Positions 19,939-24,980 of a stretch of DNA of 44,851 bases are shown here, piece by piece; the stretch's first letter is position 1; each line of letters starts with the position of its first letter. A program made the position numbers and the translations under genes. Below the pieces are notes generated by a model. It had not been told where the DNA came from and ran no database searches. It saw nothing but the letters and a program-made list of their open reading frames with translations. Origin of the DNA: Candidatus Gastranaerophilales bacterium (GTDB lineage: Bacteria; Cyanobacteriota; Vampirovibrionia; Gastranaerophilales; Gastranaerophilaceae); assembly GCA_944325895.1 (NCBI GenBank), contig CALVCA010000012.1, positions 1 to 44,851 of the forward strand, read 5' to 3'.

Positions 19939-20688
19939 ATGGGAATAGATTTAAAAGTTTCTCGGATTAGTGTGAATATGCCTTTATCCGGCTTGGGATT
20001 TAAGGGCAAAGTGCAGACGGACAGGTTTGAAAGTACGTCTGTAAGCCGTTTTACGTCTGAGAATTATATAAGAAGTTCCATAGAAACAAATCCCAAAATA
20101 AAATTAATATTAAAAGAAATGCATGCTCCCGCAAAACTAAATATCAAAGAACTTCAAGAGCTTAACGAAGGGCATGCAAAAGATACTCAAAATGTAGCGG
20201 CAGGAATAATATCAAACTTGCCGAAAGGTTTAAGAGTGCATGTTGATACAAAAGCTGTCAAAGATGCGGCTTATCTTCACGATATCGGAAAAGTTTTAAT
20301 TCCTGCAGAGGTTTTAAATAAAAAAGGTTCATTAAGTGAAGCGGAAAAAGAAATTATGCACCGCCACAGTGAACTCGGATATGAAATATTAAAAAATTCA
20401 GGACTTGATTTAAAAACTTTGAGATTAATAAAATATCACCATCAAAACCCGTCCCACACAGGATATCCAAGCGTTCCGTCAGACTTTTTTGCTGATATAA
20501 ATCTGCAAATTTTATCAGCGGCTGATAAATATTCCGCATTAACAGAACCCCGTGTCTACAAGGCGCCTATGGATAAAAATAAGGCTCTTGCATTGATATA
20601 TCGGGATGTCCAAAAAGGCAACCTGCATCCGTTTGTATTTAAAGCATTAAAAGATTATGCCGGGCAAAATGTTTGTAGTATAATCTAA
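19939..20688 (+). CDS. HD-GYP-like phosphodiesterase domain protein
   Basis: A 249-aa protein. The N-terminal 60 residues are unique and contain LGFKGK (19-24), the short motif shared with other proteins here. An HD-GYP domain follows: H79, H114-D115 (LHDIGK), H141/H143 (HRHSELGYEIL), H167-H168 and GYP 175-177, D196 (AADKYSAL). HD-GYP enzymes hydrolyse cyclic di-GMP or related dinucleotides. The usual HHExxDGxGYP is HHQNPSHTGYP, so Glu and Asp-Gly are replaced; activity or specificity may differ. No receiver or GAF domain and no diguanylate cyclase nearby. The upstream hairpin suggests tight control. Confidence 0.82.
   Translation: MGIDLKVSRISVNMPLSGLGFKGKVQTDRFESTSVSRFTSENYIRSSIETNPKIKLILKEMHAPAKLNIKELQELNEGHAKDTQNVAAGIISNLPKGLRVHVDTKAVKDAAYLHDIGKVLIPAEVLNKKGSLSEAEKEIMHRHSELGYEILKNSGLDLKTLRLIKYHHQNPSHTGYPSVPSDFFADINLQILSAADKYSALTEPRVYKAPMDKNKALALIYRDVQKGNLHPFVFKALKDYAGQNVCSII
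20679..20684 (+). promoter_or_regulatory. -10 box 6 nt before the agcS start
   Basis: TATAAT at 20679-20684 is followed by CTAAGA and the ATG at 20691. The box lies inside the end of the HD-GYP gene. The -35 match is weak. The spacing matches the other predicted leaderless starts. Confidence 0.4.
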
Positions 20689-23611: not shown

Positions 23612-24817
23612 CTAGATTAATCCGGGTTCATATTTAGAACCTGTTACAAGTTCTCTGAAAAGGAATTGGGCTTTTGGCAGACAGTATGCAAGAAGAAAAC
23701 TGCTCAATCCTATATTTGCCAAAATAGTAAAACACCGGAGTTTTATGGATTTTGAGGCGGCATGTTTAACGTTATTTTTTGCGTAAATTTGGAATTTTTC
23801 TATATATTTTTTAAATTTTGCAAGTTCTTTAACATCAACAAATGCTCTCGGGTCACGCACATTGTTTTTTAAAAGTTTTACTTTGTTATATTTCCCTGCA
23901 AGTTTAGTAAATAATTCATCGGGATTGTTGTCGATAAATTCAATTAAATCCTTAGCAGAGTCAGATTTTGGAAGTTTGAGGTGTTTGTATTTTATTGAAG
24001 CTAAAAATCTTTTATCTGCAAGCATTTTGGGATCAAGATTTACATCGGTTATTTTATTAAATAATTTTTCAAGCTGGGACGGGGCAACAAAATTCAAATA
24101 CATCATGCCTGCCATTTTAAACGCAATATCTATAGCCTCATTTTTTTTGCGGGCTGTTATAATCCTTCCCGCAGCATAACCACCGTCTGTTACAGCCATT
24201 TTTTGAACGGTTGTGAAATTGTTTATAACTGATGTCATGTTCCCGCTGAAGGTAAGATCTTTGGATTTTTTTCTTTTAAATTCATCAAATGATTTTACTC
24301 CGAAATTCGGATATGACTTATATTTTTGCATCTTTTTTGCTGTTGAGGCAAAAATTAATTTAGGAATTACAAATCCCATTAAAGCTATTGGTATTACTAT
24401 TGATGAAATAAATTTAGTATTCATCATCCGTTCAAATATTTTTCTGTTATTTTTAGCCTTTATCAAATCCTGCACTGCCTCAGGTGCTTTTTGTGCAAAA
24501 TCTTTAATATTTTTGTCAATATTTTGAAATTCGTCAGTTCCGAATAATTTCATGTTAATGTCGGAATTTAAGCCTTTTGATTTTTTTATTAAAAATTTGC
24601 CGATTTTATCGATTAAAGGTATACCGCCAAGCCATACTGCAGACACTGAATACTCATCAATAAATCTTTCTCTTGCACCGAGCCATGCTATTTTTTTATC
24701 GTTTTTATTTTGATTATAAGTCATCAAAACTTTTGCGGGAATTTCTATGCCGCAATCTCTTACGATAAGGGGGTATATACTTTTATTATTTCCTATTGCA
24801 GATATTATATTTAACAT
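23612..24817 (-). CDS. lineage-type membrane orphan, 401 aa, downstream of an attenuator
   Basis: No family recognised. A hydrophobic segment lies at about 135-160 (SSIVIPIALMGFVIPKLIF), a weaker one at 232-246, and a likely helix at 361-380 (FTILANIGLSSFLLAYCL). A LTFSGN motif at 188-193 matches the short motif seen near the N-terminus of other orphans here. The protein has only two histidines, so it is not itself His-rich. The start is fixed by AAGGAG. The transcript must pass the leader peptide and terminator at 24836-24945, so expression should depend on antitermination. Confidence 0.72.
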   Translation of the reverse strand: MLNIISAIGNNKSIYPLIVRDCGIEIPAKVLMTYNQNKNDKKIAWLGARERFIDEYSVSAVWLGGIPLIDKIGKFLIKKSKGLNSDINMKLFGTDEFQNIDKNIKDFAQKAPEAVQDLIKAKNNRKIFERMMNTKFISSIVIPIALMGFVIPKLIFASTAKKMQKYKSYPNFGVKSFDEFKRKKSKDLTFSGNMTSVINNFTTVQKMAVTDGGYAAGRIITARKKNEAIDIAFKMAGMMYLNFVAPSQLEKLFNKITDVNLDPKMLADKRFLASIKYKHLKLPKSDSAKDLIEFIDNNPDELFTKLAGKYNKVKLLKNNVRDPRAFVDVKELAKFKKYIEKFQIYAKNNVKHAASKSIKLRCFTILANIGLSSFLLAYCLPKAQFLFRELVTGSKYEPGLI

Positions 24818-24835
24818 TAAAAAGACTCCTTGAAT

Positions 24836-24865
24836 AAAAAAAAGCGACTTCTTGCAGGAAGCCGC
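24836..24865 (-). terminator. attenuator terminator (hairpin 3:4)
   Basis: On the minus strand GCGGCTTC, loop CTGCAA, GAAGTCGC, then eight T. One G-T pair in the 8-bp stem, extendable by an A-T pair. It ends just before the ribosome site of the 401-aa gene. Confidence 0.85.
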
Positions 24866-24896
24866 TGGTATCAGACCAAATCACATAGCTACCTGC
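24854..24896 (-). promoter_or_regulatory. antiterminator pairing (2:3)
   Basis: GCAGGTAGC (24896-24888, minus strand) can pair with GCTTCCTGC (24862-24854) with one mismatch. The second segment contains most of the 5' arm and loop of the terminator, so the two structures exclude each other. The first segment overlaps the leader-peptide stop codon. Confidence 0.65.
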
Positions 24897-24909
24897 TAAG
24901 TGAATGGTC
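24874..24909 (-). promoter_or_regulatory. hairpin 1:2 covering the His codons
   Basis: On the minus strand GACCA/TGGTC, TCAC/GTGA and TAGC/GCTA form a 13-bp imperfect hairpin with an AGGTA loop. Its 5' arm starts at the Asp codon of the HHDH run. It uses the same segment as the antiterminator, as in classical attenuators. Confidence 0.65.
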
Positions 24910-24945
24910 ATGATGGATTTTTACAATTTCGATAGTCTTTTTCAT
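24889..24945 (-). CDS. leader peptide MKKTIEIVKIHHDHSLSR
   Basis: An 18-codon frame with ATG at 24945 and TAG at 24889-24891. Codons 11-14 read CAT CAT GAC CAT (His-His-Asp-His), a dense histidine cluster just upstream of hairpin segment 2. A ribosome stalled there would cover segment 1 and free segment 2 to form the antiterminator; a ribosome reaching the stop would cover segment 2 and allow termination. There is no ribosome site, but the -10 box ends 6 nt before the ATG, as for the other leaderless starts. Histidine sensing is inferred from the codons. Confidence 0.65.
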   Translation of the reverse strand: MKKTIEIVKIHHDHSLSR

Positions 24946-24951
24946 AAAATT

Positions 24952-24980
24952 ATTATATAACAAAAATTTTTTTTTTGCAA
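24952..24980 (-). promoter_or_regulatory. promoter of the attenuator leader
   Basis: TTGCAA (24980-24975), exactly 17 bp, then TATAAT (24957-24952), both on the minus strand. It fits fully in the gap just after the stop of the 123-aa gene, so the leader is transcribed independently. Confidence 0.75.

Follow-up and report, generated by a model that had tools for sequence, protein, structure and literature searches.

Histidine attenuators are classical for the enterobacterial his operon, and the question raised by the locus studied here is whether such a device can also control an orphan membrane protein of Candidatus Gastranaerophilales and, if so, what this says about the protein. The locus lies on the minus strand of the window, as we call the whole 44,851-nt stretch of DNA that was analysed, and its features are listed in Table 1. 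A first-pass annotation, made from the letters of this stretch, had described a complete attenuator with all elements of the classical type in front of a gene that is not a his enzyme. The consensus promoter, the His-containing peptide, the terminator and the ribosome site of the regulated gene were all recovered as described, the terminator having a 9-bp stem and eight U if the last stem base is counted. Two helices are present in the places proposed for them, but had been counted differently: hairpin 1:2 over the His codons comprises 17 pairs with small interruptions instead of 13, and the antiterminator 2:3 using the stop-codon region has nine of ten pairs instead of eight of nine. In the latter, GCAGG-U-AGCU pairs with GGCUUCCUGC with a single U·U mismatch, and the nascent 2:3 fold in the window amounts to -15.3 kcal/mol.

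Table 1. Positions in the window of the leader elements and of the gene that they precede.
Feature	Position	Strand	Remarks
Leader region (promoter, peptide, hairpins 1:2, 2:3 and 3:4)	24980-24818	minus	5′ of the 401-aa gene
Sigma-70-type promoter TTGCAA-17-TATAAT	24952..24980	minus	consensus scan
Leader peptide ORF MKKTIEIVKIHHDHSLSR, 18 codons	24889..24945	minus	without Shine-Dalgarno (SD) sequence
Regulatory codons His-His-Asp-His	24904..24915	minus	His codons 24915-24910 and 24906-24904
Hairpin 1:2 (pause/anti-antiterminator)	24870..24914	minus	5′ arm over His codons; fold, own-versus-swapped test
Antiterminator segment 2	24887..24896	minus	overlaps stop codon
Segment 3	24854..24863	minus	common to antiterminator and terminator
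Intrinsic terminator 3:4 and U run	24836..24866 (stem 24866-24843)	minus	fold, covariation test
SD sequence AGGAG of regulated gene	24826..24830	minus	sequestered in most relatives, not clearly in the window
Regulated gene, 401-aa all-helical membrane protein	23612..24817	minus	ATG at 24817; nearly His-free, without known family

The leader peptide and its His codons are conserved. At all 80 orthologous loci from public genomes, which are partly the same genomes under public names and mostly titled Candidatus Gastranaerophilales, a leader ORF with three or more His was found, compared to 1.8% of background short ORFs, and His makes up 22% of the leader residues. Orthologs of the 401-aa protein occur in the same genus and family, and a His-rich leader ORF stands in front of each one that was inspected closely (examples are MKKALIKLHHHSHSTLG, MKNIVSRQFHHHHHSNLKRL and MFTPSVKRHHHNHHHCH). 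Between genera, these peptides share only the His cluster while their flanking residues vary; non-His residues are conserved within sub-groups (STLG, NLKRL). Reading of the sequences by eye revealed a recurrent promoter resembling TTG(A/C)AA...TATTAT ahead of leaders in the genus of the window. An SD-like sequence precedes the peptide in about half of the 80 loci. In the window, 6 nt separate the end of the -10 box from the leader ATG, and the peptide, lacking an SD sequence, would be translated as a leaderless or near-leaderless message; other leaders with a -10-like box near the ATG may be read in the same way. The start of the leader (window positions 24945-24957) is devoid of an SD sequence in several lineages and of SD type in others, and it is possible that the same leader switches between leaderless and SD-led translation across lineages.

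The folding analyses likewise point to a conserved RNA structure. The 120-nt leader reaches -34.2 kcal/mol compared to -21.6 kcal/mol for shuffled sequences (z -3.9), surpassing 200 out of 200 shuffles. Covariation of the antiterminator was measured on 25 aligned leaders against shuffled and slid controls: 94% of the cells were paired versus 35-64% in the slid controls, compensatory changes on both sides were observed at nine of the ten pairs, and the covariation score was 0.63 compared to 0.33 for the shuffled and 0.08-0.32 for the slid controls. A second test, for which no column-exact pairing is needed, compared the pairing among one genome's own segments with that to segments swapped in from other genomes. 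Own segments paired better for all three helices, with z values of -9.1 (2:3), -8.1 (3:4) and -5.8 (1:2), and of -6.6, -7.2 and -3.0, respectively, when one genome per genus was used. The conservation and covariation that the first-pass annotation had named as its checks were hence found for the peptide as well as for each helix. The mutually exclusive 1:2, 2:3 and 3:4 helices follow each other in the order expected for ribosome-mediated attenuators, and an intrinsic terminator separates leader ORF and gene in the window and in most, not all, relatives. We have high confidence that the attenuator at this locus is genuine.

In the mechanism that we propose, transcription would begin at the leader ATG or slightly upstream of it, and the His-containing peptide would be translated by a ribosome. 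With ample charged tRNA-His, this ribosome would reach the stop codon and cover segment 2, and the 3:4 terminator would end transcription. If histidine is short, it would stall on the His codons and cover segment 1, segments 2 and 3 would pair, and the polymerase would thereby continue past the terminator into the gene for the 401-aa protein. In most relatives, the freed segment 2 is predicted to take in addition the CAAUUC strand, which is otherwise paired with GAAUUGGAG at the ribosome site of the gene, so that translation would come under control as well. Judging from these sequence features, the leader in all likelihood responds to histidine in the cell.

To simulate the proposed switch, a ribosome was placed on the second His codon or at the stop codon and the RNA that it leaves uncovered was folded, with a terminator probability <0.3 on stalling and >0.7 at the stop codon as criterion. 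By this measure, the terminator was lost on stalling and restored at the stop codon in 51 out of 77 leaders (59 with looser limits); some of the 77 are without a good terminator. In 65 of 78 relatives, but not in the window, the ribosome site of the gene is covered by a conserved helix, CAAUU...GAAUUGGAG. Among the 65 leaders with this helix, SD accessibility on simulated stalling went up in 31 and down in two, and this level alone seems to operate in some of the leaders that lack a good terminator. In the window itself, the terminator probability changed from 0.97 to 0.75 on stalling and to 0.98 at the stop codon, and its nearest relative, G007, showed no change on stalling. Since the stalled-state fold in the window still favours the terminator, its switch must, according to the model, either rely on co-transcriptional folding or be weakened; both copies appear reduced, and their function would hinge on the order in which the helices form while the RNA is being made. 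The earlier description as complete therefore applies to the parts, all of which are in place, but not to the state of the window copy, which is reduced to a peptide without SD sequence and a weak switch. For this reason, the complete form of the leader is better seen in the relatives than in the window.

A covariance model of the leader yielded one match per genome, in 79 of 146 genomes of the family and 125 of 241 genomes of the order, and among the matches listed for the order every one falls into this single family. RNA model and protein search disagreed in 12 genomes, seven being detected by the protein search only and five having a model match with no strong protein match. Reading of ten of these (all except G165 and G166) and of one further genome revealed a His-rich leader and the gene in each. 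A pattern search for CAY runs in the genome of the window was discarded as too unspecific. Searches of the window and its relatives against Rfam at gathering and relaxed thresholds (E up to 5) gave no match for the leader; this includes the His_leader covariance model (RF00514), and the T-box models had no match in window or relatives either. By the features tested, the leader belongs to the class of ribosome-mediated attenuators but falls outside the Rfam His_leader family.

The distribution of the gene is linked to that of histidine biosynthesis. Of the 146 family genomes, 86 contain the gene or leader and 60 do not; HisD is kept in two of the 86 carriers compared to 36 of the 60 non-carriers (Fisher p 8e-16, uncorrected for kinship), and the distribution of HisB agrees with this. 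Both HisD and HisB are absent from the genome of the window, which is 99.8% complete. As opposite states of gene and HisD occur within the genera g38 and g57, the exclusion does not go back to one ancient split. Exceptions exist in both directions. HisD and gene occur together in G020 and G027 and, in a smaller set, in G012, while G003 and G005, which belong to the genus of the window, possess neither. At the latter loci (L194 in G003, L193 in G005), the slot between the uracil-DNA glycosylase (UDG) gene and DUF167-relA is intact and empty, leader and gene both being missing and UDG being directly followed by the 123-aa gene and/or DUF167-relA. Because of this intact, empty slot, the absence of the gene is considered real and the gene dispensable. 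Together, the exceptions indicate that the gene is neither strictly tied to histidine auxotrophy nor indispensable for it. The HisD of G012 (L050, G012:C10) scored 601 bits versus about 500 in relatives, in a genus otherwise without HisD, and may represent a re-acquired pathway or a contaminating contig.

A second line of evidence, independent of the RNA, is the depletion of His in the protein. Its mean His content in 79 orthologs is 0.07%, compared to 1.35% in neighbouring genes, and 62 of the 79, each roughly 400-470 residues long, contain no His at all, for which the chance at the neighbours' rate would be about 0.003 for a random protein; the protein of the window has two. No other amino acid is depleted as strongly, although Cys is also low (0.57% versus 1.69%), and paralogs without His leaders contain 0.45-2.5% His. 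The suggestion that the target is histidine-related is strengthened by this near-absence of His and by the loss of the his pathway in nearly all carriers.

The predicted structure is all-helical (pLDDT 82, pTM 0.72), with two strongly hydrophobic helices at residues 139-157 and 362-380 and a disordered loop at 168-197. Searches of 30 family members against Pfam, NCBIfam and PHROGs returned only scattered weak matches judged to be chance, a sequence search of solved structures with the protein returned nothing, Foldseek gave no match to the predicted model at E <0.001, and the best Z of VIA-align (6.6) was within the noise for helical models. A multidrug transporter ranked first by Foldseek (E 0.27, TM 0.15) was not taken as evidence. 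No Pfam or NCBIfam family could be assigned to the target, which does not correspond to any known his enzyme. As regards its proposed role as transporter or envelope factor, the link to histidine stands, but transport finds no support in the fold, which shows two clear transmembrane helices and has neither a family match nor a confident fold match. Judged by sequence features and general knowledge, the neighbours of the target include a uracil-DNA glycosylase gene together with a sodium:amino-acid symporter-like gene at 43 of the 80 loci, and relA/spoT at 53. The (nearly) invariant F190 and the G following it sit in the disordered loop. Short FKG/FKA/SFxG motifs (PSFKANI, LGFKGK, LTFSGN) recur in the window at 25354-24983, 19939-20688 and 24817-23612, in flexible or N-terminal parts of unrelated proteins, and could possibly be a lineage-wide sorting or binding motif.

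The 401-aa protein belongs to a wider family in the order, other members of which have different leaders. Just upstream of the paralogs L039-L047 and L031-L035, a second conserved leader ORF was observed, which is Arg-rich, ends in ...KLMNLIWGL or similar and has an SD sequence, with no terminator between it and the gene; at L031 and L033, the ribosome site is directly adjoined by an inverted repeat, ACTCAAG...CTTGAGTTATGGAGG. This leader looks like a different, peptide-dependent translational control. At the paralog L036 in the genome of the window (G000:C34), the region upstream of position 945 contains the short ORF MQLRRLTNYFSERLV and, between it and the gene, a terminator-like hairpin AAGACCTTTCAAGAGGTCTT with a T run.

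Taken as a whole, the locus very probably represents a histidine attenuator of the ribosome-mediated type; the protein under its control would be made when histidine runs short, probably to acquire histidine in auxotrophic strains. One could also regard it as just the terminator of the upstream 123-aa gene combined with a chance promoter and a chance short ORF, as no terminator of its own lies between the end of this gene (24983) and the leader, promoter-like matches are common by chance across the AT-rich window (83 found versus 75 expected), and the peptide has no SD sequence. However, the leader ORF is there at every locus, including loci with an unrelated gene upstream (only ten of the 80 have the 123-aa gene), and the competing helices covary, so that a chance terminator was rejected on the grounds of conservation and this explanation is extremely improbable. 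Another mechanism to be considered is ribosome arrest specific for the peptide sequence, as in TnaC and Erm leaders, instead of codon-level sensing of tRNA-His. The residues conserved within sub-groups would be compatible with it, and the strongly conserved paralog leader ending in MNLIWGL looks like an arrest peptide; yet the His cluster is all that the genera share, and the C-terminal codons are explained by the pairing of segment 2, which makes arrest very unlikely.

More weight has to be given to the view that the attenuator is a real histidine attenuator, but that its product is a general starvation or envelope factor for which scarcity of histidine merely serves as signal. The protein lacks a transporter fold or family, paralogs without His leaders are found in the same genomes, and relA/spoT adjoins at more than half of the loci. 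On the other hand, a supply role accounts better for gene and histidine pathway being almost mutually exclusive, and few histidine-makers have the gene, even though auxotrophs without it exist; overall, we regard a general factor as unlikely. Returning to histidine acquisition, a His-reading switch in genomes mostly without the his pathway, in front of a nearly His-free product, suggests that the protein helps to cope with, and probably to obtain, scarce histidine. We lean towards a His-free membrane protein made under histidine starvation that would help to obtain histidine in strains without its biosynthesis, for example by uptake of histidine or His-peptides. An extended version, in which the target founds a new class of membrane proteins for acquiring histidine (or His-peptides), His-free so that it can be made at histidine exhaustion and acquired or kept as the pathway was lost in Gastranaerophilales, with the leader as a new two-level (transcription and translation) attenuator family, appears evenly poised.

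The open-access literature yielded no report of an attenuator either in Gastranaerophilales or preceding a gene of this kind; as regards the gene, this agrees with the first-pass annotation. While the class of mechanism is known, the RNA family, the phylum, the target gene and the two-level control appear to be undescribed. The regulatory RNA names a signal for a protein family without a database name, and together with pathway exclusion and the nearly His-free product it leads to a prediction, open to testing, of what an orphan membrane protein does in gut bacteria that are widespread but mostly represented by assembled metagenomes alone. With this locus, classical attenuation also extends to relatives of cyanobacteria that do not photosynthesise. 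With the enterobacterial hisL leader (Rfam RF00514, His_leader), the leader shares the His-codon peptide, the 1:2, 2:3 and 3:4 helices, the intrinsic terminator and the logic. It differs in having no Rfam match, in the SD-sequestering helix added in most relatives and in its target, an orphan membrane protein in genomes mostly without the his pathway instead of the his operon. Candidate His attenuators with leader peptides of three to five His codons, a terminator and an antiterminator have been proposed for his operons of Firmicutes (B. cereus group, Peptostreptococcaceae, Erysipelotrichales), and hisZ*YX transport has been named among the targets of new RNA elements or T-boxes (PMC9413887). 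These leaders are of the same type, but belong to another phylum and target, and the present one is documented by 80 loci with covariation. Histidine T-box riboswitches, which control his transporters in Firmicutes (PMC9413887), likewise place acquisition genes under control of the histidine supply; they read uncharged tRNA directly, however, and have no match here. Finally, amino-acid biosynthetic enzymes are known to avoid their own amino acid, a phenomenon called low cognate bias (PMC4209129). The same avoidance by a protein needed on starvation is seen here in a membrane protein under a cognate attenuator and not in enzymes, and with His almost completely absent it is an extreme example, the avoided amino acid being the one whose shortage would induce the protein.
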